Positions 20,019-42,237 of a stretch of 64,000 nt of DNA are shown one piece after another. Both the position numbers and the translations under genes were made by a program. The notes beneath the pieces were generated by a model, which did no database searches, was not told the DNA's origin, and saw only the letters and a program-made list of their open reading frames with translations. Source of the stretch: an uncultured Mycoplasmatota bacterium (GTDB lineage Bacteria; Bacillota_I; Bacilli_A; Izemoplasmatales; Izemoplasmataceae); NCBI GenBank assembly GCA_913062645.1, contig CAJXVW010000001.1, positions 186,001-250,000 on the forward strand. Reading direction: 5' to 3'. Positions within the stretch are counted from its first letter, which is position 1. Each line of letters opens with the position of its first letter.

Positions 20019-20029
20019 ATTCACAAATC

Positions 20030-20275
20030 GTCAAGCAGAAGTGAGTAGACATGAATCGTTCTGTCAAGAGAGTCAGTGGTTGGTGCGAACTGATCGGAAC
20101 AACATCGTCGAATGGATCTGTGAGAGGGTGCCGGAACAATAGTATGGCATCACGGGAGCTCCCGTTACCGAGCTAGGATATGTTGGTATCCGAACGAGGG
20201 TTTTTCAACCGAACAAGAGGTGGCACCACGTCATTGACGTCCTCTGCGCAAGTTTTGCGCAGGGGATTTTTTTAT
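20030..20275 (+). promoter_or_regulatory. T-box leader, tRNA-Trp specificity
   Basis: A leader of about 250 nt between the promoter and trpB has the parts of a T-box. The stem I region contains AATGGATC, in which TGG at 20113-20115 fits a Trp specifier. The antiterminator core AGAGGTGGCACCACG lies at 20216-20230. An intrinsic terminator, CCTCTGCGCAA/TTGCGCAGGGG plus a T-run, lies at 20241-20273. Uncharged tRNA-Trp would pair with the T-box bulge, stabilise the antiterminator and allow transcription of trpB. The T-box class is clear; the exact specifier loop is read by eye. Confidence 0.9.
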
Positions 20276-27355: not shown

Positions 27356-27480
27356 GAAATCAATGGAATATTCACAGGTAATTCAAAAGTTTTTAAAATG
27401 CTTGTGATATAATGATTATAAGTATTAGGTGATAAAATAATACATGAATACATATAGGTGTTACTGAAAGGAAGTTGGAT

Positions 27481-30400
27481 ATGCCCACAAACCTAGGATA
27501 TGAAGAACTGACGTTATACTTTAACATCGCGTTCTTCGCCATCATCGGACTTGGTTTTCTGATCGGCTATATCAGGGGGTTCCGGAAGTCACTGTACTCG
27601 TTTATCGTGACATTGATTTTCTACGCCCTCTTTTTTGCTACCATAGAAGCCGTTGTCAACCAGCTGTGGATCACGCCGCTGCCATTCGCGTTCGAACCGC
27701 TTGCGGGAGTTCTACCGGAACTCGCCGGCGTTCAGACAATCGGCGAAGCGGTATTCGAGTTGCTCGAGTCTTATCTTGGTGAAACGCTGGGTGATACGAT
27801 GACCAATGTGCAGTTCGTCGCATTCGTCACCGGCATCGCACAGTTTGTCGTCAAGCTCGTGTACACGATCTTGTACTTCACCGTTGGCCAGCTGATCTAC
27901 AAAATCCTGATGGGAATCATCCGCTTGTTGTTCTTCAGCAAGAACGCCCAGATGGATGCCCACAAGCAGGCCAAGCGCCAAGTCAGGAAGATGAAGCTCA
28001 AAAAACGCGACATCAAGCGAATGAAAAAAGAAGTTCGCATGGAATGGAAGAAGATGTCCCGCAAGGAACGCAAGGCGCGTGACAAAGAACTTCGCAAGTT
28101 CCGCAAGAAAAAACGCAACAAGAAGGAAGTCTTCGACAATCGCGAACTCTTGGATAACCTGAACAAACCCAGCCGTCAACCACTGATGGGCGCACTGTTT
28201 GGTGCGGCCAAAGGTGCCGTCAGCGCATACATCACCCTGATTCTTCTGGGTGGCATGATGAGCATGATGGGCAGTCTCTTGACGGTCTTACCCGAAGACG
28301 ATACGACCGTGACCCGGGAAACGATCGAACAGATCTATCTCATGAACGATCCGATGTATGTCGTCGACAGCGAGCCGTCGTTGCAACCGCTCGCCAGCCC
28401 GTTCGATGTTCCGCCCGAGCTGGAAAGCCAACTCGACATGGCGCGCAACATGGTGGACGCATTCAATGACAACCTGTTTGTCCAAAACGCATCCAGCCTC
28501 ACCTATAATGGTGAGGAATATGGCGCTCCCGTGGAAATGCACTTGTATCTGTTCGACACCGTGTTGTCGTTCAATTTCAACGAGGAGCGAATCATGCTCC
28601 GCAACGAACTCGATGTCATGGGCGACACGGCCGCTGTTCTGATGGACTCCGAGTTCATCGACACCAATGACATCGCCGACATCCAGGCGACTGAAATCGT
28701 CGCCCTGTTTGACACCATATCGCAAAGCAAACTGATTACCAACATTCTGCCGCTCGGCATCGAGATCGGCAGTGAAATGTATGAAACCGACATTGAAGTT
28801 CCCGTTGATGAGCTGTATGAAATCGACTGGGAAAGCGAACTTCAAACGCTCGGTGCCGTCGCCGCCGTCGGCTTTGAACTGATCAACACCGCCGGCATCC
28901 TCAATGACGAAACCGATCTGACGACCGTCACCATCGACGGTACCGACGTGCGCGATCTGTTTGATTCGCTGGCGGACAGCGAGCTGGTGACGCTCGGCGC
29001 TTATGTCGCCGTTGAACCGCTGCTCAGTGAAGCTGGCGGCAACATCAGTGCGATCATCACCGTGCCGACCGATTTGGATTGGGGCGATGAGTTCCGCGCC
29101 TTTGGCGAAGTCGCCGAGTCCGTTCTCAACACCGGCATCACCGTCGGTGATCTGGAAAGTGGCGACCCGACGATTCTGATCGGCGCTTTGGCAGATCTTG
29201 ACTTTACCGTTCTACTCAACTCCAAAATCGTCACCAATGCACTTGTCAATGTCTTCAGCGGCCAGGCCGGCATCGAAGGGCTCGACATGATCGTCGTTCC
29301 CGACGGCATCGACTGGAACGACTTATTCGACGATGACGGCAATCTCGTAAATCCGGGTGAACTGCGCAACATCCTGGAAGCGTTCAACGCCATCACCGAT
29401 GTCGCCGGCGGATTCGATCTGGAGAATCTCGACTTGCAGTTGATTGCCGATTTTGATGAAGAAACCATCGACACCATTTTCGCATCACAGGTCCTTGTCG
29501 CGACAATCAGCACGTTCCTGCTCGACATGGATCTTGGTGATACTCCGTTGCTGATTCCGGACTCGGTATTGGATGAAGACGGGTACATCACCGCAACGGA
29601 ACTGAAGGCGGTGGCCAACTCAGCACGGGTTCTTGTCACCGATCTTGCTTGTGACGAAGGCGACACCGTTTGTGAAGAGACCGGATTCGACATCGCCAAA
29701 GCATTCGATCTGTCCGATACCTCGATCGATACGTTGACGACTTCGGACATCATCGGCGCGACCGTCGGTAATCTGATCATCGACAGCGGCGGTGACATTC
29801 TCACCGTTCCGCCGAGTGCGCTATCCACCATCAGTGTCGACGACGTCGATCAGGATGTCGTCAGCAAACAAGAAATCAAACGCGTTTTCCAAGCCGTCGG
29901 TGTACTTGGATTCACCGATCTCGACAACATGGCGTTCGACGCGTCGATCATTCAGAATCTCGGCCTTGCGGCCGATCCGACGACGTTGGATACCGACAAA
30001 TCGGACAAACTGTTCGCATCGAAAATTGTTCATGCAACCTTGTCCGACATGTTGTTTGAACAGGCAACGGGTGAAACCGCCGTTTTGAATGTACCATTCT
30101 ATGCCTCGGACAACACGACCGAAATCCGTGTCTTCAGCACCGAAGACCAGATCACTTACATCTCACTGGATGAACTGGAGAGCGTGCTTCAGGCATTGCT
30201 GTCGCTCGACATCAGCGACTTTGCCAATGTCGACAGCCTCGACCTTGGTCTGTTGCTTGACAACATCGACAGTTTGCTCGAATCGGCGATACTGCATGCA
30301 ACCATTTCCGAACAGGTCATCGACCTGTCGACCGATACGATTTCACTTCCCTATGTGGATGCGGACACCAATCTCATCCGCTTCCGCGTTGGTGACATCC

Positions 30401-33400
30401 TTGCCGGAACCGATACGGAATACATCGCCAAGACGGAAATTACCGCGGTCCTCGACGCCATGGAAGTGCTTGGCATCACCGAAGACATTAACAGCTTTGA
30501 CGGCAACGTCGACATCGCGTCGATTACTGCCGAAGAAGGCAACATCGCCATTCTCCTCGCGAGTGCGACGATTCACGCCACCATCTCCGATCAACTTCTC
30601 ACGTTGGTAAGCGATGGAACGCTGAGTGTACCGTATGTCGCAGCGAATGACACCGATGTTATCCGCGCTACCGTCGGCAACCCCGGCAAACAGACCGAAT
30701 ACATCGCCAAGACCGAAATCCAGGCCATGATCGACGCCCTCGAAGTGCTCGGCATCACCGAAGACATCAACACCTTCGACGGCAACGTCGACATCGCCTC
30801 GATCACATCCGACCCGGCCAACATCGCCACGCTGCTTGCCAGCGCGACGATCCACGCGACCATTTCCGACCAGTTGTTGCAACTGGAGGATGATGGTACC
30901 CTGGCCGTACCATACGTCAAATCCGATGGCGTTACCGACGTCCGCGTGACCGTGGGACCGGTCGGCAGCGAAACCGAATACATCACGAAATCAGAAATCG
31001 AAGCGATGGTCGATGCCCTTGAAGTGCTCGGCATCACCGAGGACATCAACACCTTCGACGGCAACGTCGACATCGCCTCCATCACATCGACACCAGGTAA
31101 CCTTGACACGTTGCTGCTTTCGGCGACGATTCACGCGACCATTTCCGACCAGTTGCTGCAGCTCGACACCGATGGTACCCTGGCCGTCCCGTTCCTGGCT
31201 GAAGACGACGCCACCGAGATTCGCGTCACGGTAGGTCCGGTCGGATTCGAAACCGAATACATCACCACCGATGAAATCAGTGCCATGGTCGATGCGCTCG
31301 AAGTGCTCGGCATCACCGACGACATCAATAGTTTTGACGGCAACGTCGACATCGCCTCGATCACTTCGACCGAAGGCAACATCGACATCCTGCTGTCAAG
31401 TGCAACGATCCAGGCGACCATTTCCGATCAGTTGTTCCAACTGGATACCGATGGTACGTTGGCGGTTCCGTATTTCGCGGAAGACGGCACTACGGAAATC
31501 CGCATCACCGTAGGTGACGCTCTCGCCGGAACCGATACCGAATACATCCTCGCCACCGAAATCAGTGCGATGGTGGACGCCCTCGAAGTGCTCGGCATCA
31601 CCGAAGACATCAACACCTTCGACGGTAATGTCGACATCGCCTCGATCACATCCGAAGAAGGCAATCTTGCCATTCTGTTGGCGAGCGCCACCATTCAGGC
31701 GACCATCTCCGATCAACTATTGCAACTTGATGTGGATGGCACCCTCGCCGTACCGTTCTTCGCCGAAGACGGCACCACCGAAATCCGCATCACGGTTGGT
31801 GACGCGTTGGCCGGAACCGATACCGAATACATTCTCTCGACCGAAATCACCGCCATGGTGGATGCGCTTGAAGTACTTGGCATTACCGAAGACATCAACA
31901 CCTTCGACGGCAACGTCGACATCGCTTCGATCACATCCGAAGACGGCAACATCGACATTTTGCTTGCCAGTGCGACGATCCAGGCAACGATTTCCGATCA
32001 ACTCCTGCAACTCGATGTGGACGGCACCCTCGCCGTACCGTTCTTCGCCGATGATGACAGCACCGAAATCCGTGTCACCGTTGGCGATGCCTTGGCTGGA
32101 ACCGATACCGAGTACATCATTGCGGTGGAAATCACCGCGCTTGTCGATTCTCTTGAAGTGCTCGGCATCACCGACGACATCAACACCTTCGACGGCAACG
32201 TCGACATCGCATCCATCACCTCCACCGAAGGCAACATCGACATCCTGTTGGCCAGTTCCACCATCCAGGCGACCATCTCGCAACAATTGATCGATCTGGA
32301 CATCGCTGGCACGATTTCCCTTCCGTTCGTGGAAGAGGACGGTCTGACGGCCGTTCGCATCAGCGTTGGCGATGCACTCGCCGGCACCGATACCGAATAC
32401 ATCACCGGTGATGAAATCACCGCGCTCGTCGACGCGCTCGAAGTGCTCGGCATCACCGATGACATCAACACCTTCGACGGCAACGTCGATATCGCCACCG
32501 TAACATCGCAACCTGGCAATGTCGACATCCTGTTGACAAGTTCCACCATTCAGGCGACCATCTCCGAACAGTTGATCGAACTGGACGTTGCCGGTACGCT
32601 TGACGTGCCGTTCCTCGCCGACGACGGAACCACGGACATCCGTGTCACCGTCGGTCCAGGCGGCAGCGAAACCGAATACGTTGTGAAAACCGAAATCAGC
32701 GCCCTTGTCGACGCCCTCGACATTCTCGGTCTGACAACCGGATTCGATACCTTCGACGGCAGCGTCGACATCGCGTCGATCACCGCCGAACCCGGCAATA
32801 CCGCAATCATGCTGGCCAGCGCTTCGATTCAGGCGACGATGTCCAAACAAATCGTTGATCTCGACGTAGCCGGCACCGTGGTCCTGCCGTTCCTCGAAGA
32901 AGACAACGCGACCGCTGTCCGCATCACCGTCGGCAGTGGCGCCACGGAAACGGAATACGTGTCGAAGACCGAACTGGAAGACATCATCAATGCGCTTGAC
33001 GTGCTCGGAATTACGTCGGACGTCAACAGCTTCGACGGCTCCGTCGATCTGAGTGTGCTCGCCACCGGCAGCAACTCCACGATCGTCCTGTCCTCCTCGA
33101 TGATTCAGGCGACCGTCTCCGAACAGGTCATCGATCTCGAGACGACCATCGTCACCACCGAGTTCGTGGTCCCGTATCTGGCGGACAATGACACGACCGA
33201 GGTTCGCTTCACCGTCGGCAGCGGCGCCACCGAAACGGAATACGTGCTCGCGGCGGAACTCGACGCGATGATCGACGGTCTCAACATTCTCGGCATCACC
33301 AACGTCGAAACCTTCGACGGTTCGATCGACCTCACCAACTTCTTTGACGAAACCAACCGCAATACACTTCTCACGTCATCGATCATGCAGGCGACCATTT

Positions 33401-35112
33401 CCGCTCAGTTGATTGATCTTGGCGACAGCGTGCTGCGCGTTCCGGTGCAAAGCATCAGCGCCGTCAACGTTCGCGTGGAAGTCGGCGACGCTCTCAGCGG
33501 CACCGACACCGAATACGTCACCAAAGATGAAATCGGCGCGATGTTCGAAGCGCTTGAAGTACTTGGCTTCAGTGACATCAACGACTTCAGCGGCACCATC
33601 GACCTCAACAACGTCTATGGCGAAACCAACCAAAACATCATTCTCGCCAGCGCCTCGATGCATGCGACGATCTCGAAACAGATCTTCGATCTCGCACCGG
33701 TCACGATTCAAATTCCCACGACCGACATCGACGGCATCAGCATCCAGGCGACCGTCAGTGGTACGAACTTCCTGACGGCCGACGAAATCAAAGGCATGAT
33801 CAATGCGCTCGAAGTGCTCGGTGTTGACAACATCACCACCTTCGACGGCACCTTCAGCCTTGCCAGCCTCAGCACCGGCGCGGCACAGGATACGCTCCTC
33901 TCGAGTGCCTCGATCCATCTCACCGTCACCAACAATCTCACCGGATTCGATGATTCGGTCCTGATCGTCCCGGCTTACAAGCAAGCGGGCGAAACACCGG
34001 GCAACGAAATCAAGCTCACCGTCAGCGGCAGCGAATTCGTCATCAAGGACGAAATCAAGTATCTGATCGACGCCTTCAACATCCTCGGCTTTTCCGACAT
34101 CGGCGGCGCGACGGAAATCAGTCTCTCCGGATTCTTCACCTCCAGCGACGATCTCCTGTTGTCCGCATCGATCCAGGCAACGGTCTCCGACAAGATGCTC
34201 AATGGCACCGGCGGCTCGCTCATCGTACCGGACACCAACGTCAACGATGCCACCACCATCCGCATCGTACAAACCGATGTTACCTACATCGAGGTTGACG
34301 AAATCAAGGCCACCTTGGACGGACTCGAAGCCATGGGTCTCACCGACTTCGGCAGCTTGTCGTTCAATCCGGCCACGATTTTCCTCGCCGACTTCAATGT
34401 GGTGCTCGCCAGCGCCAGCCTGCAGGCGACGATCTCCGACAACATTCTCGATCCGCTCACGTCCGGTGACGAAACGGAAGCGTATGGTACGACCAAACTT
34501 CTGGTTCCGACCTTCTTCCGCGAAGACATCACCGTTGCCAGTGCCAGCTCGAAACACATCGAGAAAACGGAACTGTTCAACCTGCTCACTGCGCTCGACA
34601 CCCTCGGCGTCAGCGACTTCGGAGGACTCAGCGGCAGCGCCGTCACCAGCATGACGGACGCCGATCTCGACACCTTGCTCACCAGCGGATCGATGCACAC
34701 CACGATCGACAACATGCTGCGCGGCAACGGAGCCTTGTCCTTCCCGACCCTCGCCGAAGCGGATCCCGATCCGGATTATCAGACGAACATCCTCACCAAA
34801 GTCGAACTCAAGGCGTTCATCAAAGCGACCAATACCGTCACCACCGGCGGCAGCTTCACGAGCGTCAGCTTCGACCTTACCCTGATGTCCGGTCTCAGCA
34901 CCGCCCAGCGCGAAATCGTCGTCGCATCGATGATCGTCCGCGATACGCTGACACCGTCGATCGAAACGATCGAAGCGGCTGCCTTGATCACGCCGGATCC
35001 ATCCGACGAATACGGCATCACCGCAACCGACTACATGAACGACGACACCGGAACGTTCCTCACCTACGACGACATTCTGCTCATTCTGGAACATTACTAC
35101 CCGGCGCCGTAA
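27481..35112 (+). CDS. Giant CvpA-like membrane protein with long tandem-repeat body
   Basis: A 2543-residue protein; AAAGGAAG at 27467-27474 supports the ATG at 27481 (a TTG lies 6 bases earlier). Residues about 10-60 and 110-150 are hydrophobic, with a CvpA-like start (FIGYIRGFRKSLYSFIV pattern). A strongly basic segment follows (about 155-225, rich in KK/RK), then another membrane segment at about 235-265. Everything after residue ~270 is acidic and Cys-poor. It is built from roughly twenty divergent units of about 90-95 residues, each with the core E-x-x-x-x-x-x-A-L-x-x-L-G-[IF]-x-x-x and LLASATIQATISDQL. No LPXTG or second anchor is seen; the C-terminus is YYPAP. The body is likely extracellular, which is inference. 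Function unknown. Confidence 0.88.
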   Translation: MPTNLGYEELTLYFNIAFFAIIGLGFLIGYIRGFRKSLYSFIVTLIFYALFFATIEAVVNQLWITPLPFAFEPLAGVLPELAGVQTIGEAVFELLESYLGETLGDTMTNVQFVAFVTGIAQFVVKLVYTILYFTVGQLIYKILMGIIRLLFFSKNAQMDAHKQAKRQVRKMKLKKRDIKRMKKEVRMEWKKMSRKERKARDKELRKFRKKKRNKKEVFDNRELLDNLNKPSRQPLMGALFGAAKGAVSAYITLILLGGMMSMMGSLLTVLPEDDTTVTRETIEQIYLMNDPMYVVDSEPSLQPLASPFDVPPELESQLDMARNMVDAFNDNLFVQNASSLTYNGEEYGAPVEMHLYLFDTVLSFNFNEERIMLRNELDVMGDTAAVLMDSEFIDTNDIADIQATEIVALFDTISQSKLITNILPLGIEIGSEMYETDIEVPVDELYEIDWESELQTLGAVAAVGFELINTAGILNDETDLTTVTIDGTDVRDLFDSLADSELVTLGAYVAVEPLLSEAGGNISAIITVPTDLDWGDEFRAFGEVAESVLNTGITVGDLESGDPTILIGALADLDFTVLLNSKIVTNALVNVFSGQAGIEGLDMIVVPDGIDWNDLFDDDGNLVNPGELRNILEAFNAITDVAGGFDLENLDLQLIADFDEETIDTIFASQVLVATISTFLLDMDLGDTPLLIPDSVLDEDGYITATELKAVANSARVLVTDLACDEGDTVCEETGFDIAKAFDLSDTSIDTLTTSDIIGATVGNLIIDSGGDILTVPPSALSTISVDDVDQDVVSKQEIKRVFQAVGVLGFTDLDNMAFDASIIQNLGLAADPTTLDTDKSDKLFASKIVHATLSDMLFEQATGETAVLNVPFYASDNTTEIRVFSTEDQITYISLDELESVLQALLSLDISDFANVDSLDLGLLLDNIDSLLESAILHATISEQVIDLSTDTISLPYVDADTNLIRFRVGDILAGTDTEYIAKTEITAVLDAMEVLGITEDINSFDGNVDIASITAEEGNIAILLASATIHATISDQLLTLVSDGTLSVPYVAANDTDVIRATVGNPGKQTEYIAKTEIQAMIDALEVLGITEDINTFDGNVDIASITSDPANIATLLASATIHATISDQLLQLEDDGTLAVPYVKSDGVTDVRVTVGPVGSETEYITKSEIEAMVDALEVLGITEDINTFDGNVDIASITSTPGNLDTLLLSATIHATISDQLLQLDTDGTLAVPFLAEDDATEIRVTVGPVGFETEYITTDEISAMVDALEVLGITDDINSFDGNVDIASITSTEGNIDILLSSATIQATISDQLFQLDTDGTLAVPYFAEDGTTEIRITVGDALAGTDTEYILATEISAMVDALEVLGITEDINTFDGNVDIASITSEEGNLAILLASATIQATISDQLLQLDVDGTLAVPFFAEDGTTEIRITVGDALAGTDTEYILSTEITAMVDALEVLGITEDINTFDGNVDIASITSEDGNIDILLASATIQATISDQLLQLDVDGTLAVPFFADDDSTEIRVTVGDALAGTDTEYIIAVEITALVDSLEVLGITDDINTFDGNVDIASITSTEGNIDILLASSTIQATISQQLIDLDIAGTISLPFVEEDGLTAVRISVGDALAGTDTEYITGDEITALVDALEVLGITDDINTFDGNVDIATVTSQPGNVDILLTSSTIQATISEQLIELDVAGTLDVPFLADDGTTDIRVTVGPGGSETEYVVKTEISALVDALDILGLTTGFDTFDGSVDIASITAEPGNTAIMLASASIQATMSKQIVDLDVAGTVVLPFLEEDNATAVRITVGSGATETEYVSKTELEDIINALDVLGITSDVNSFDGSVDLSVLATGSNSTIVLSSSMIQATVSEQVIDLETTIVTTEFVVPYLADNDTTEVRFTVGSGATETEYVLAAELDAMIDGLNILGITNVETFDGSIDLTNFFDETNRNTLLTSSIMQATISAQLIDLGDSVLRVPVQSISAVNVRVEVGDALSGTDTEYVTKDEIGAMFEALEVLGFSDINDFSGTIDLNNVYGETNQNIILASASMHATISKQIFDLAPVTIQIPTTDIDGISIQATVSGTNFLTADEIKGMINALEVLGVDNITTFDGTFSLASLSTGAAQDTLLSSASIHLTVTNNLTGFDDSVLIVPAYKQAGETPGNEIKLTVSGSEFVIKDEIKYLIDAFNILGFSDIGGATEISLSGFFTSSDDLLLSASIQATVSDKMLNGTGGSLIVPDTNVNDATTIRIVQTDVTYIEVDEIKATLDGLEAMGLTDFGSLSFNPATIFLADFNVVLASASLQATISDNILDPLTSGDETEAYGTTKLLVPTFFREDITVASASSKHIEKTELFNLLTALDTLGVSDFGGLSGSAVTSMTDADLDTLLTSGSMHTTIDNMLRGNGALSFPTLAEADPDPDYQTNILTKVELKAFIKATNTVTTGGSFTSVSFDLTLMSGLSTAQREIVVASMIVRDTLTPSIETIEAAALITPDPSDEYGITATDYMNDDTGTFLTYDDILLILEHYYPAP
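30463..32718 (+). repeat. Tandem coding repeats of 279/285 bp
   Basis: Eight in-frame units start at 30463, 30742, 31021, 31300, 31585, 31870, 32155 and 32440. The unit is 279 bp (93 codons) or 285 bp (95 codons), the difference being GSETEY-like versus ALAGTDTEY-like segments. Each contains EVLGIT[ED]DIN[TS]FDGNVDIA. These central copies are highly similar at DNA level; units on either side are recognisable only as protein. Confidence 0.93.
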
Positions 35113-38337: not shown

Positions 38338-38366
38338 TTGACAAAAGATGACAGCGAGTGTATAAT
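38338..38366 (+). promoter_or_regulatory. Consensus promoter of riboswitch 1
   Basis: TTGACA at 38338-38343, 17-base spacer, TATAAT at 38361-38366. Confidence 0.92.
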
Positions 38367-38400
38367 GCAAATGTATCAAGTCAAAACCATGGAATGCGAT

Positions 38401-38501
38401 CCATGGGTTGACATTTGATAAAGCCAAAGCTGGAGCGATCCAGTGACGGAAAACTACAGGGTCTCACGAAGACAGCCAGTTGCCTGATGACAAGCCCATG
38501 G
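38401..38501 (+). promoter_or_regulatory. Cyclic di-GMP-I (GEMM-I) type riboswitch 1
   Basis: The leader contains, in order, AAAGCCAAAGC; a CTGGA-GCGA-TCCAG hairpin closed by a GNRA tetraloop; GTGACGGAAAACTACAGGG; and GACAGCCAGTTGCC. This is the order and spacing of the GEMM-I aptamer (GGCAAA, GNRA-capped P2, GACGCAAAGC, tetraloop receptor, AGCCAG). Some core positions differ (GCCAAA for GGCAAA, GGAAAAC for GCAAAGC), so ligand preference needs checking. CCATGGG at 38401-38407 can pair either with CCATGG at 38387-38392 or with CCCATGG at 38495-38501, which abuts the ribosome site GGGAGGA. There is no terminator, so control is probably translational. Confidence 0.82.
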
Positions 38502-38513
38502 GGAGGAATCATT

Positions 38514-39020
38514 ATGAAACGCATTCTGATGTATCTGGTTTTGATGTTTTTTATTTCCCTTACCACGACGTATAGTTACACACAAGTCACCGCCGACAAT
38601 GAAGTGTACCTCGAGGACATTTCCGAGTTTTATCTCATCAACGAGCAACTGGTGTCCGGTCGGACCAGCAAGTTGGTCCCAACCGGTGTCATCCGAGCTG
38701 TCGGCGATGTCTATGAGATTGTTTATCAGTATGAACTGATTATCAAAGATGGAACTAAGTTGCAGTCGAAGGTGGATGATCTGATGTTCTCGGACTCCAC
38801 CGTGAGCAATCAGCAGTTGCGTGACACGTTCAACTTCCGATTCGATCAGACTGTTGTCGAATCGTTCACATACACTGGTGATTTGTTCGAAAAGCCAGTG
38901 GAAGCACAACGGGTGCTCGTAACTCTCCATGTCACGATGAATGCACCACAAACCTATGAACTCTATCGCCAGATTGCTGGCGGCAACCTGAATTTCGAAG
39001 TCTATTTCTATGTCATCTGA
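38514..39020 (+). CDS. Exported TasA/camelysin-like protein under riboswitch 1
   Basis: A 168-residue protein with GGGAGGA seven bases before the ATG. An N-terminal signal (MKRILMYLVLMFFISLTTTYSY) is followed by a beta-rich domain. Residues about 56-75 (KLVPTGVIRAVGDVYEIVYQYEL) align with NLVPEGYVFAVNDVEEVTLEYEV of the protein at 41391-41993, and the region after the signal (SYTQVT) aligns with AYWQDVT. It is therefore a paralogue whose AYW signature has lost the Trp. It is likely a secreted matrix or fibre subunit. This role is inferred from the relationship and from the neighbouring SipW enzymes. Confidence 0.78.
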   Translation: MKRILMYLVLMFFISLTTTYSYTQVTADNEVYLEDISEFYLINEQLVSGRTSKLVPTGVIRAVGDVYEIVYQYELIIKDGTKLQSKVDDLMFSDSTVSNQQLRDTFNFRFDQTVVESFTYTGDLFEKPVEAQRVLVTLHVTMNAPQTYELYRQIAGGNLNFEVYFYVI

Positions 39021-39078
39021 CCCAACAAAACTTACCGCTTAAACCTATCAAATTCGTTCTAAGACCTATCAAAACAGT

Positions 39079-39105
39079 AAAAAAGAGAGCTCAACTCTCT
39101 TTTTC
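39079..39105. terminator. Bidirectional terminator between the two c-di-GMP-linked units
   Basis: AAAAAGAGAG/CTCTCTTTTT stem with CTCAA loop; the minus-strand peptidase stop (39091-39093) lies in the loop. Confidence 0.85.
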
Positions 39106-39678
39106 TTTTGTGTTATCATGCGGCTCTTTGACAGTCTCTTTCGGACTCCGAATCAACTTCACAATGAAGTAGATGATGGTTCCGTTGATGGCCAACAGTC
39201 CGACGAAAATCGGATCGCGAAGCATCGAAATCAGGATGCCGGCTCTGGGGATCCGGAACTGGTACTTGCCGACGACATCGTCGATTTGAATCTCAATGGG
39301 ATTGCCTTGGCCATCCGTCCATTCATCATAGTCGTCCGGATCGGCGGTGGCCCCCTGTGTCTTGTAAATTTCATTTCCGGATCCGTCGACAAGCACATCA
39401 CCAACGTAATGTGTGACGAACCCATAGTCACCGAGTTCCGGGATGTGCGCCCGGAAGGTGATGATGTCACCGGTGTCGATGTCCTCTTCCTCGGCACGTG
39501 TGATGATGATCATGTCGTTGACGTTGATCACCGGTTCCATGCTTCTTGATACCACGACGAAGGTGCGAAACCCGAACCAGTTGATCGTCTGTTGCGGAAG
39601 CAGGACGCCAAGCAAAATGTATACCACCAGCAGTGCGCCCAGCAGGTATCCGAATATGGATAGGATTCGATTGGCCAT
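39091..39678 (-). CDS. SipW-type signal peptidase I (paralogue A)
   Basis: A 195-residue membrane peptidase of the ER/SipW subgroup (S26B). Helix one is at residues 8-28. The catalytic Ser lies in VVSRSMEPVINVNDMIII (about 45-47), the His is in FVTHYVGDV (about 88-90), which takes the place of Lys in ordinary bacterial SPase I, and VVGKYQFRIPRAGILISML is followed by a C-terminal helix (about 155-175). It would cleave AYW-type signals of the neighbouring exported proteins. It lies downstream of a second SipW paralogue, with a terminator-like hairpin between them. Confidence 0.9.
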   Translation of the reverse strand: MANRILSIFGYLLGALLVVYILLGVLLPQQTINWFGFRTFVVVSRSMEPVINVNDMIIITRAEEEDIDTGDIITFRAHIPELGDYGFVTHYVGDVLVDGSGNEIYKTQGATADPDDYDEWTDGQGNPIEIQIDDVVGKYQFRIPRAGILISMLRDPIFVGLLAINGTIIYFIVKLIRSPKETVKEPHDNTKEKES

Positions 39679-39712
39679 GCGACACCTCGCTTTCGATGTC
39701 TGGTTGGGGTAA

Positions 39713-39756
39713 GAAAAACAGAAGCATTCAACCCGATGATTGAAACTTCTGCTTGC
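39713..39756 (-). terminator. Hairpin between the two sipW-like genes
   Basis: Minus-strand AGCAGAAG...TTCAA / TTGAA...CTTCTG stem followed by TTTTTCTT. It should end or reduce transcription after the gene at 39785-40354. Confidence 0.65.
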
Positions 39757-39784
39757 TGTTACATGTTAATGATGACTGCAAATA

Positions 39785-40354
39785 TCAATCTTTGGATTCA
39801 GGTTCTGGAGTTGGCTCTTCCGCTTTTCCATTCTTGAGAAGGATTACAATGCCAACAATGACGCCGATGTTCACAACCATGGCAGCGATGCCGAAAGGGC
39901 TTTGTATGAATAAGACAATGGCTCCAATCCATGGAATATGGAAAGCATATTGTCCAAGAACATCGTCACCTGTTATTACCCAAGGGTCTGCAGTAACTTC
40001 ATCGTCTTCGTCGAAATATCGATGAGTTTGAATGTAGTAAGTGCCGTCATCCTCGCTGATGGAATAGATATAGTGTGTAACGACTTCACTTGAGCCATTG
40101 TAATCAATATCCGCATAAAAAGTGATGATATCTTCCTCATTCAAATCTTCAGAATCAAAATTAGTAACAATTATCAAATCGTTCACTTTTAGTTCGGGAT
40201 ACATGCTATCTGTTATAACAACATATGGTCGAAAACCAAATACTCTTACGGTCATTTCTGGTGCGATTAATTGTAACATAATGTAAAGAATTAAAAATGC
40301 CGCAACAACAAATGTAACCCCGAGTTTGATATTCTCTTTTGTGCTTTTCTTCAT
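39785..40354 (-). CDS. SipW-type signal peptidase I (paralogue B)
   Basis: A 189-residue S26B peptidase. Membrane helix at about 12-32; catalytic Ser in YVVITDSMYPELKVNDLIIV (about 50); catalytic His in EVVTHYIYSI (about 93); C-terminal GDDVLGQYAFHIPWIGAIVLFI and a second helix. It differs from paralogue A by DSMYP in place of RSMEP, and has an acidic, Pro-rich tail. Base composition here is clearly more AT-rich than in the flanking housekeeping genes. GCGAGGGATCCCAC precedes the ATG. Confidence 0.9.
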   Translation of the reverse strand: MKKSTKENIKLGVTFVVAAFLILYIMLQLIAPEMTVRVFGFRPYVVITDSMYPELKVNDLIIVTNFDSEDLNEEDIITFYADIDYNGSSEVVTHYIYSISEDDGTYYIQTHRYFDEDDEVTADPWVITGDDVLGQYAFHIPWIGAIVLFIQSPFGIAAMVVNIGVIVGIVILLKNGKAEEPTPEPESKD

Positions 40355-40390
40355 GTGGGATCCCTCGCTAATTGAAAGTCTACTAAATTA

Positions 40391-40399
40391 ATTATAGCA
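40391..40399 (-). promoter_or_regulatory. Extended -10 promoter of the sipW-like gene at 39785-40354
   Basis: Minus-strand TG-C-TATAAT about 37 bases before the ATG. It suggests that the peptidase can be made independently of the riboswitch-controlled transcript. Confidence 0.6.
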
Positions 40400-40408
40400 C
40401 AGGATAGA

Positions 40409-40434
40409 AAAATAGGCACGAATAATTTCGTGCC
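40409..40434 (-). terminator. Terminator after the CBM-like exported protein gene
   Basis: Minus-strand GGCACGAA/TTCGTGCC hairpin with ATTA loop and TATTTTTC. Confidence 0.8.
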
Positions 40435-40444
40435 CATGCTTTCA

Positions 40445-40750
40445 TCAAGTGAGTTGGGTCCAGTCTCTAGCCCAGCCACCCTCAACACCAGGTTCCCGAA
40501 GCAATCCGCTCTTCTTCGCTTCATATGTTATACCATTGTTCGTTACAATGTCGCCAATGTTGTATGAGGTGTTTGGATCGTACGGTGTTGTAAACGTCCA
40601 AGTGCCAGTGCTGATGGTGCGAGTAGTAGTGTTTGAAGAGGTGCTGATCCCACTAGCCCAGTACGCGTAGGTTGAATCTACAAACTGAGAAAGGGAAAAA
40701 ACCATGAGAAATATCATGGAGATGGTTAATAGTTTGCGCTTGAGTCTCAT
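40445..40750 (-). CDS. SipW-substrate protein with chitin-binding-like (CBM5/12) module
   Basis: A 101-residue exported protein. The signal ends STYAYWASGISTSSNTT, the AYW signature of SipW-dependent substrates. The C-terminal half, TTPYDPNTSYNIGDIVTNNGITYEAK and GGWARDWTQL, has the Y-x-x-G-D-x-V-x-x-x-G-x-x-Y-x-A ... W pattern of the small CBM5/12 chitin-binding module. It is a plausible polysaccharide-binding component of the matrix. The CBM match is by eye. It lies 42 bases after the gene at 40793 and ends at a terminator. Confidence 0.78.
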   Translation of the reverse strand: MRLKRKLLTISMIFLMVFSLSQFVDSTYAYWASGISTSSNTTTRTISTGTWTFTTPYDPNTSYNIGDIVTNNGITYEAKKSGLLREPGVEGGWARDWTQLT

Positions 40751-40792
40751 GGCTTCACCTCATTTCATGGAAGACTGAAATGTGTTAGATAA

Positions 40793-41317
40793 TTAGCTGG
40801 TTGCAGCAGCTGCAGTAAGTTCGAAGGTGAGGGTTACAGTTTCACCGGCAACGAGATTGTAGGTTGCTTGATCAGCAGGTTCGCTCATTGTAACGGTAAC
40901 GGTGATTGTAGTTCCCGTTCCTACTGTAGCAGTAACAGGACCGCCAGTAATGCTGAACAAACTGGATACATCGGTGCTGCCGCTATTAACGGCGCCAGTC
41001 AAGGCTGCGCTAACGCTCGTTTCGAGACCATCAGCGTCATCGGTTGCTCCAGTAACAGTAACATTGAAAGTGAACGATAACGAAGTGACTTCACCAGTAT
41101 CAGGAGTGATGTTGGAAGGGATCAGTGATCCAGTTCCATCCGAGTTGGTCGTGATAACTACGGAAGTAGCGATTGTGTCACCACTACCAATGGTGATGTT
41201 GCGATCAGTCGTAGCACTACTGGTTGAGATTCCAGCTGCCCAGTAGGCGAACGTTCCGGTGGTGACGGTGAAAGCGAGTAACAAGAGTAACAAGATTCCT
41301 AATTTTTTTGATTTCAT
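40793..41317 (-). CDS. SipW-substrate exported protein (Thr/Ser/Gly-rich)
   Basis: A 174-residue protein with AAGGAGAAAAAAATC before the ATG. The signal MKSKKLGILLLLLLAFTVTTGTFAYWAAGISTSSATT shares the AYWA-x-GISTSS stretch with the protein at 40445-40750. The mature part is Thr/Ser/Val-rich, predicted all-beta and Cys-free (SLSFTFNVTVTGATDD, TATVGTGTTITVTVTMSEP), like fibre-forming or camelysin/TasA-class proteins. Middle gene of the riboswitch-2 unit. Confidence 0.8.
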   Translation of the reverse strand: MKSKKLGILLLLLLAFTVTTGTFAYWAAGISTSSATTDRNITIGSGDTIATSVVITTNSDGTGSLIPSNITPDTGEVTSLSFTFNVTVTGATDDADGLETSVSAALTGAVNSGSTDVSSLFSITGGPVTATVGTGTTITVTVTMSEPADQATYNLVAGETVTLTFELTAAAATS

Positions 41318-41390
41318 GATTTTTTTCTCCTTATCCTTTTTTAATATTATTGGTTTGGTTGGATGTTCTATCTGTTAAAATTATTGCTAA

Positions 41391-41993
41391 TTATTGTTGC
41401 TGTGTTTCGGTTGCTTCCGGTTTCGCTTGGAGTTCGAATCCCAATGCGAATGATATGGTCTGACCCTTGATGGTTTCATAGGCTAAGACGGAGTCTTCGA
41501 CATTAACCCGTTCGCTGTCTAGATTGCGTTCCAATGCTTCGTCCGCGTCGATTGGTTCAATCAATCGTACGGTAACGGTAATGGTGATCGTATCATTATA
41601 TAAGTCCAGTACTGCTTGGCCTCCGTTGCCGAGGATCGAAATGTCCACCAGATGACTGTAGGTGTCTTGCTCATTTATAAGGATGTCATTGATGGTGATG
41701 TACAGATCGACGGTATTCAGCAATTCACGCGATACACTCACTTCATACTCCAAGGTTACCTCTTCGACGTCGTTCACGGCGAACACGTATCCTTCCGGAA
41801 CCAGATTCAGTTGTCCGACATCGGCGGAGATGTCGTCGACAATGATCTCGATCGGTTCGCCGATGGTGACGAGTTCGACATCCCTTGTGACCGTCACGTC
41901 CTGCCAGTAGGCGAGTGCGGAAGAGGATGTGAAGATGAATCCGACGAAGAGAAACGATAGCGTAGCAAGTTGTATGGCCTTTCGGCTTAACAC
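41391..41993 (-). CDS. TasA/camelysin-like SipW substrate under riboswitch 2
   Basis: A 200-residue protein starting with GTG at 41993, preceded by GAAGGAAGTGGTAAC. The signal ends SSSALAYWQDVTVT with the SipW AYW signature. The mature domain is beta-rich: a D-I-S-A-D-V-G-Q-L-N-L-V-P-E-G segment, AVNDVEEVTLEYEVSVSRELLN, and a C-terminal LAYETIKGQTISFALGFELQ. The tail is Glu/Thr/Gln-rich. It shares the LVP-x-G-x-x-x-AV-x-DV core with the protein at 38514-39020. First gene of the minus-strand unit and the probable main structural product. Confidence 0.82.
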   Translation of the reverse strand: MLSRKAIQLATLSFLFVGFIFTSSSALAYWQDVTVTRDVELVTIGEPIEIIVDDISADVGQLNLVPEGYVFAVNDVEEVTLEYEVSVSRELLNTVDLYITINDILINEQDTYSHLVDISILGNGGQAVLDLYNDTITITVTVRLIEPIDADEALERNLDSERVNVEDSVLAYETIKGQTISFALGFELQAKPEATETQQQ

Positions 41994-42015
41994 GTTACCA
42001 CTTCCTTCTCTTCTA

Positions 42016-42049
42016 ACAAAAATATCAGTGAGATCGTCTCACTGATATT
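42016..42049 (-). terminator. Riboswitch-controlled terminator
   Basis: Minus-strand AATATCAGTGAGA/TCTCACTGATATT, a 13-bp stem with a 3-nt loop followed by TTTTG. It lies between the aptamer and the GTG start, as expected of a transcriptional riboswitch. Confidence 0.88.
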
Positions 42050-42176
42050 GGTTGTCGGATGTGTTTGTCCTGTGATAACCAATTACCAATGAGCGATGCA
42101 CGATTGGTAACTGGCTGCCATTTTACAGGCCCTGTAGTTTTGCGAACCATGAATTTCTCCATGGGTTGCCTTTTCA
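42047..42176 (-). promoter_or_regulatory. Cyclic di-GMP-I (GEMM-I) type riboswitch 2
   Basis: On the minus strand: AAAAGGCAACCC; a CATGGA-GAAA-TTCATG hairpin with GNRA loop; GTTCGCAAAACTACAGGGCC; and GGCAGCCAGTTACC. This is the GEMM-I aptamer order, closer to consensus than riboswitch 1. The aptamer's 3' TTACCAAT (plus-strand 42103-42110) is complementary to ATTGGTAA (42083-42090). The following ATTGGTT (42077-42083) is complementary to AACCAAT at 42047-42053, which overlaps the terminator's 5' arm. These alternatives suggest that ligand binding frees an antiterminator, i.e. an ON switch (inference). Confidence 0.87.
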
Positions 42177-42208
42177 TTTTTGTGGGCACTACCCCACTGT
42201 GCACGTTG

Positions 42209-42237
42209 ATTATGCCACACATTTTGGGTCTTGTCAA
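42209..42237 (-). promoter_or_regulatory. Promoter of riboswitch 2
   Basis: Minus-strand TTGACA (42232-42237), 17-base spacer, CATAAT (42209-42214). Confidence 0.88.

Follow-up and report, generated by a model that had tools for sequence, protein, structure and literature searches.

A predicted c-di-GMP-dependent exchange switch between exported surface proteins in a wall-less bacterium of the Izemoplasmatales

In Clostridioides difficile, a class I riboswitch for bis-(3'-5')-cyclic dimeric guanosine monophosphate (c-di-GMP) acts as an OFF switch on zmpI (ZmpI/PPEP-1) and a class II riboswitch as an ON switch on CD2831 (PMC6366702, PMC6447587). The class I riboswitch Bc2 of Bacillus thuringiensis is a transcriptional ON switch for the adhesin gene cap (PMC6366702, PMC4933901), and Vibrio cholerae possesses, in one genome, two class I c-di-GMP riboswitches with opposite responses (PMC6366702). 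As regards signal peptidases of the SipW type, the tapA-sipW-tasA operon of Bacillus subtilis, whose TasA fibres form by donor-strand exchange (PMC9674648), is controlled by SinR and AbrB (PMC2614493), and no description of a c-di-GMP riboswitch on this operon was found in the literature. The sipW-bsaA locus of Clostridium perfringens is temperature-regulated and no riboswitch has been reported there (PMC7395162). No paper joining a c-di-GMP riboswitch to a SipW-type module was found in the open-licence literature. The locus considered here lies in a stretch of 64,000 nucleotides (the window, C1:186001-250000) of the 1.99 Mb, two-contig genome of a bacterium of the Izemoplasmatales, and consists of two convergent units, each headed by a predicted class I c-di-GMP riboswitch: unit A encodes the exported protein A, and unit B the exported proteins B1, B2 and B3, followed by two SipW-type peptidases (Table 1). 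We consider it reasonably probable that the locus works as an exchange switch, replacing exported surface proteins in response to c-di-GMP. Since the two riboswitches are predicted to be opposite in sign, c-di-GMP should replace protein A by a homologous set, one subunit of which bears a carbohydrate-binding module (CBM5/12).

The C. difficile pair resembles this arrangement in that adjoining surface-adhesion genes stand under oppositely acting c-di-GMP riboswitches. However, it joins a protease to an adhesin substrate and employs two unrelated riboswitch classes, whereas at the window locus both riboswitches are of class I, one predicted to be translational and the other transcriptional, and the exported proteins are homologous. 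Bc2 is alike in being a class I transcriptional ON switch, as predicted for unit B, but is one switch on one collagen adhesin without a SipW-type export set. V. cholerae likewise has an oppositely responding class I pair in a single genome; its two switches are located at separate, unrelated loci. With the B. subtilis operon the window locus shares a SipW-type peptidase encoded together with beta-rich substrates bearing its signal, but it differs in its two peptidases, its four exported proteins, the CBM5/12 subunit and the lack of a TasA match above cut-off. The C. perfringens locus also combines a SipW-type peptidase with several homologous matrix proteins, under temperature control instead of the riboswitches of the window locus.

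A sequence-only reading of this DNA had proposed that two consensus promoters (38338, plus strand; 42237, minus strand) each precede a leader with the GEMM-I RNA, and that the convergent units meet at a shared terminator. All of this was borne out. The promoters agree with the consensus at 12 and 11 of 12 positions, the remaining promoter-like sites of the region at 9 each; the shared terminator was scored on both strands; and the covariance-model check with RF01051 gave full-length matches for both leaders (model positions 1-87 of 87), well above the gathering score of 35 bits. By this comparison both leaders are c-di-GMP-I riboswitches with predicted c-di-GMP binding, and the whole genome has three of them. 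Variants of GEMM-I that sense cyclic GMP-AMP (cGAMP) exist, and they carry an A at the position of G20 in the Vc2 RNA. That the ligand here should be cGAMP or some other cyclic dinucleotide is nevertheless highly improbable: in both aptamers the RF01051 alignment shows a G at model position 11, which we take to be the ligand-contacting G20 of Vc2, and the genome encodes 12 GGDEF and 3 EAL proteins, on account of which it is probably able to make and degrade c-di-GMP.

In both leaders the expression platform was found, by computation, to be coupled to the aptamer through mutually exclusive helices that are kept in relatives. The order of elements in unit B is the aptamer, then an arm able to pair either with the aptamer 3' half or with the 5' side of the terminator, then the terminator itself. 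In the free leader the anti-aptamer pairing had a probability of 0.99 and the terminator stem one of 0.95. With the aptamer held, the latter fell to 0.03 at the point of decision and stayed at or below 0.04 at each transcript length between the completed stem and the last base of the U-run; the antiterminator is the more stable (-19.2 kcal/mol versus -15.8 for the terminator hairpin). Among 25 unit B leaders the aptamer 3' half serves directly as the terminator 5' arm in 20, and a separate terminator is present in 4. Pairing is stronger between native arms than between swapped ones (-16.5 versus -14.65; 0 of 20,000 permutations). Folding thus gives the unit B leader the anatomy of a transcriptional ON switch.

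The unit A leader is built differently. Its start codon stands 22-29 nucleotides (nt) past the aptamer in all 12 leaders compared, a distance that leaves no space for a terminator. Upstream of the aptamer lies a segment that can either fold on itself as a hairpin, of which the like precedes most of the 12 related aptamers, or extend the basal helix P1 with the aptamer 3' end, through the Shine-Dalgarno sequence and the first codons. The native strands gave a mean of -30.8 kcal/mol in the 12 leaders against -20.8 for swapped ones (0 of 20,000 permutations). When the aptamer pairs were merely permitted, no folding difference was seen; the final test therefore consisted of enforced aptamer pairs with swapped-upstream controls. 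With aptamer and P1 enforced, the start region of the window leader became 3.8 kcal/mol more costly to open. The cost rose in 11 of the 12 leaders (mean 3.8 kcal/mol), in each of which the native effect exceeded all 11 swapped-upstream controls (mean of all swaps, 0.3). As judged from folding, the unit A leader has the anatomy of a translational OFF switch. The idea that c-di-GMP turns the whole locus on was rejected on this comparison. If both riboswitches were ON switches, c-di-GMP would raise all exported proteins together, as might be supposed from the clearly ON-like structure of unit B and from Bc2 of B. thuringiensis, a class I ON switch (PMC6366702). The short distance from aptamer to start in unit A and its start region, made harder to open by aptamer and P1, make this quite unlikely.

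The exchange switch would work as follows. At low c-di-GMP the unit B leader would make the anti-aptamer hairpin and then the terminator, keeping B off, while unit A would retain its 5' hairpin, leave the ribosome site open and allow protein A to be made. At high c-di-GMP the bound unit B aptamer would retain its 3' half, the freed arm would pair with the terminator 5' arm, and transcription would read through into B1, B2 and B3; in unit A the bound aptamer would stabilise the extended P1, burying the Shine-Dalgarno sequence and the start codon. By analogy with the known families, the B proteins would be exported by Sec, the two SipW-type peptidases would remove their AYW signals, and on the wall-less surface the proteins would probably build a carbohydrate-binding fibre or coat with a part in adhesion. 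Protein A may act as an alternative subunit, as a cap or as an inhibitor. The earlier proposal that c-di-GMP directly controls assembly of a fibre or matrix thus stands in part: the two c-di-GMP-I riboswitches, the dedicated SipW-type export set and the wide conservation agree with it, but the signs predicted by folding are opposite, and the control would not be a simple ON.

Several observations weigh against this mechanism. The folding calculations, from which all predictions on switching derive, treat secondary structure and ignore the tertiary contacts of the aptamer and kinetics. At equilibrium, the full-length unit B leader forms the terminator again (0.94) even with the aptamer pairs imposed, and since this happens once later sequence is present, the ON response would need a co-transcriptional decision. 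One unit A leader of the 12 (L088) had no effect, and in the window the Shine-Dalgarno sequence itself shifts by only 0.3 kcal/mol, the effect falling on the whole start region. The last figure would also suit a unit A riboswitch that is decayed or neutral here, with only unit B regulated, as would the departure of its aptamer from the consensus at model pair 12/37. This explanation appears improbable, in view of the natively matched P1 strands, of a score higher than that of the unit B aptamer (56.9 versus 48.2 bits), and of the nature of the 12/37 change, a compensated one (C-G for G-C) common to most related unit A aptamers. Finally, the predicted terminator at 40437-40412 may separate expression of the peptidases from that of unit B in this genome. 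In most relatives examined the gap between B3 and the peptidase is about 20-30 bases, too short for a terminator; the peptidases are therefore probably coupled less tightly to the riboswitch here than in relatives, and direct riboswitch control of their genes in this genome is uncertain.

The exported proteins of the two units are related. Two related beta-rich exported proteins had been expected on the convergent units, and A and B1 matched each other in BLASTP (6e-5) and in profile-profile comparison (98.4%, E 6.4e-15); with the match of B2 to B1 (98.8%, E 7e-17), A, B1 and B2 are homologous on these comparisons. The number of proteins with an AYW signal, given earlier as two beyond this pair, has to be corrected: the motif occurs in three unit B proteins (genes starting at 41993, 41317 and 40750), and protein A has SYTQ where it would stand. 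Relatives of B1 are present in 42 of 120 genomes. The CBM5/12 match of B3 is marginal (26.4 bits, cut-off 26.2, profile positions 2-22 of 44 covered); such a match was obtained in 7 of 7 B3 homologues, the best at 7.1e-7. A second B1-like protein is encoded outside the window (L131, G000:C1:129000-132500, at 1212-1748), flanked by a response-regulator-like gene and a membrane sensor-like gene. It has a lipoprotein-type signal (LLLFLVACEP) and no riboswitch, and could be a membrane anchor of the exported set.

The exported proteins had also been assigned to the TasA/camelysin class, an assignment that is plausible, as is fibre formation by the B proteins, but that stands in a weaker form. It is suggested by the SipW-type peptidases, the AYW signals, weak recurring family matches and one Foldseek rank. 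No Pfam or NCBIfam TasA/camelysin match above cut-off was found among the exported proteins. PF12389 (TasA/camelysin) matched 1 of 9 B2 members below cut-off (E 0.44), and TIGR04088 (SipW-dependent signal) matched 7 members over three alignments, all weakly and none above cut-off (best E 0.022; B3, 12.4 bits, cut-off 19); weak matches to the TapA and BsaA families recur across members. A search of solved structures by sequence profile gave no TasA structure and nothing relevant. The AlphaFold model of B1 (predicted local distance difference test, pLDDT, 62.6) brought the TasA fibre 8aur to rank 2 of 1555 in Foldseek (E 1.8e-3, template-modelling score ~0.3), with donor-strand pilins among the top matches. 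The low-confidence B2 model (pLDDT ~62) gave generic immunoglobulin (Ig)-like matches only, TasA not being among the best 50 Foldseek matches listed; VIA-align likewise gave only generic Ig-like matches (Z ≤6.5), and the absence of TasA from the matches listed there is no evidence of absence. Models with a pLDDT of 62 are too poor to decide on the TasA fold. The Ig-like sandwiches of such models and the failure of every protein to pass a TasA/camelysin cut-off would fit unit B proteins that are single adhesins or an S-layer-like coat, SipW-type signals, which occur on many surface proteins, being merely the export route. This we regard as unlikely, though less so than the other alternatives discussed, since a carbohydrate-binding subunit is produced alongside several homologous ones, as happens in multi-subunit fibres, and the Foldseek ranking of B1 and the recurrence of SipW-dependent, TapA and BsaA matches point the other way. 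A carbohydrate-binding fibre or coat is what the B set would most probably form.

The presence of two SipW-type peptidases in the locus was confirmed by TIGR02228, an archaeal/endoplasmic-reticulum-type signal peptidase model with a cut-off of 51.85, which both exceed. They have a catalytic Ser with His instead of Lys, S46 and H90 being invariant in 11 sequences including both window peptidases, and are the only SipW-type peptidases of the genome. One ordinary LepB-type peptidase is encoded separately, and the pair is therefore not the housekeeping enzyme. Orthology to the Bacillus SipW is not claimed, because the equivalog model NF046067 (cut-off 190) was matched well below its cut-off. In relatives, a third peptidase-like protein is encoded between or after the SipW-type genes (L083:6356-6949, L085:2540-3133, L084:5175-5753, L088:5262-5861). 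It is absent from the window, apparently lacks the catalytic Ser and His by eye, and may be an inactive partner.

By sequence comparison the locus is a conserved module of the Izemoplasmatales and relatives, shared by genomes of Izemoplasma/Izimaplasma, Acholeplasmataceae and other Mycoplasmatota records. A scan of public genomes with the B1 profile gave 27 loci, in 25 of which B1 is immediately preceded, on its own strand, by a c-di-GMP-I aptamer; the sequence of L098 offers only about 125 bases ahead of the match, not enough for an aptamer, and in L109 there was no aptamer match despite room. For the order, at least 46 of the 117 SipW-type matches listed lie within 5 kb of a riboswitch, against 1.5 expected by random placement (about 30 times); the count is a lower bound, since only riboswitches among the matches listed were counted and many assemblies are fragmented. 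The convergent layout with two riboswitches is also found in four relatives (L076, L083, L085, L084), and in L082, L088 and L091 the same genes share a single orientation, with as many as three aptamers. Two or three tandem c-di-GMP-I aptamers precede B-type operons in L088, L089, L090, L091 and L102. One locus (L094, contig C49 of G018) was left out of the comparisons as probable contamination, because this contig, although its 1.4 Mb assembly belongs to the same family, has 60% GC and haloarchaeal-looking proteins.

The host is a wall-less sediment bacterium, in whose genome no penicillin-binding transpeptidase was found. A cultured relative, Xianfuyuplasma coldseepsis zrk13, is a deep-sea isolate without a cell wall (PMC8397711). 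Wall-less relatives of the Mollicutes are rarely regarded as c-di-GMP organisms. The exchange switch, if true, would offer a direct and testable account of how wall-less cells attach to particles, through the choice of surface proteins by RNA; it would link SipW-type export with second-messenger signalling, and would provide natural ON/OFF pairs within one aptamer class, useful for RNA engineering.

Table 1. Features of the locus (window coordinates), in order of position
Feature	Position	Strand	Basis
Unit A promoter, TTGACA-17-TATAAT	38338..38366	+	12/12 consensus positions
5' hairpin (anti-P1) consuming the 5' strand of basal helix P1	38374..38420	+	minimum-energy fold of free leader
Extended P1 5' strand, CCATGGG	38401..38407	+	pairs with 38495-38501
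Unit A c-di-GMP-I aptamer	38413..38487	+	RF01051 56.9 bits, E 1.8e-8
Extended P1 3' strand, CCCATGG (38495-38501), abutting Shine-Dalgarno GGAGG (38502-38506)	38495..38506	+	sequence
Protein A, exported, 168 amino acids (aa), homologous to B1, without AYW motif	38514..39020	+	sequence comparison
Bidirectional terminator between convergent units	39079..39105	both	scored terminator-like on each strand
SipW-type signal peptidase 2, 195 aa	39091..39678	-	TIGR02228 64.8 bits
SipW-type signal peptidase 1, 189 aa	39785..40354	-	TIGR02228 60.7 bits
Predicted intrinsic terminator between B3 and peptidase 1	40412..40437	-	11 pairs then TTTTC
B3, 101 aa, AYW signal and CBM5/12 module	40445..40750	-	PF02839
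B2, 174 aa, AYW signal, Thr-rich beta protein	40793..41317	-	profile-profile match to B1
B1, 200 aa, AYW signal, GTG start	41391..41993	-	sequence
Unit B leader terminator	42021..42049	-	13 pairs then TTTGTT; stem probability 0.95 free
Antiterminator, CUCAUUGGUAAUUGGUU (42093-42077) with AACCAAUAUCAGUGAG (42053-42038)	42038..42093	-	16 pairs, one bulge
Anti-aptamer arm, AUUGGUAAUUGG	42079..42090	-	complementary to aptamer 3' half CCAGUUACCAAU (42114-42103), 12 pairs
Unit B c-di-GMP-I aptamer	42103..42180	-	RF01051 48.2 bits, E 2.4e-6
Unit B promoter, TTGACA-17-CATAAT with TG	42209..42237	-	11/12 consensus positions

The third c-di-GMP-I riboswitch of the genome lies outside the window (L130, G000:C1:299000-305500; 73 bits), ahead of three tandem mreB genes and then an EAL protein, in a genome without a penicillin-binding transpeptidase. 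Likewise, mreB is found downstream of a riboswitch in G003 (L079), G019 (L132) and G013 (L022). Control of MreB filaments by c-di-GMP in wall-less cells would be unusual, if true. It is tempting to speculate, at a little less than an even chance, that an opposed class I pair, translational OFF and transcriptional ON, exchanges SipW-exported homologous subunits on a wall-less cell, conserved through the Izemoplasmatales and relatives, and that with the riboswitch of the triple mreB-EAL locus surface and cytoskeleton are switched together.

Elsewhere in the window, a T-box leader was detected at 20022-20247 (107.7 bits), and one open frame at 27475-35112 encodes a protein of 2545 aa that has a membrane N-terminus and contains numerous degenerate repeats like EITAMVDALEVLGITEDINTFDGNVDIASITS. 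A protein near the module in L080 has a similar N-terminus, and one in L076 has similar repeats.

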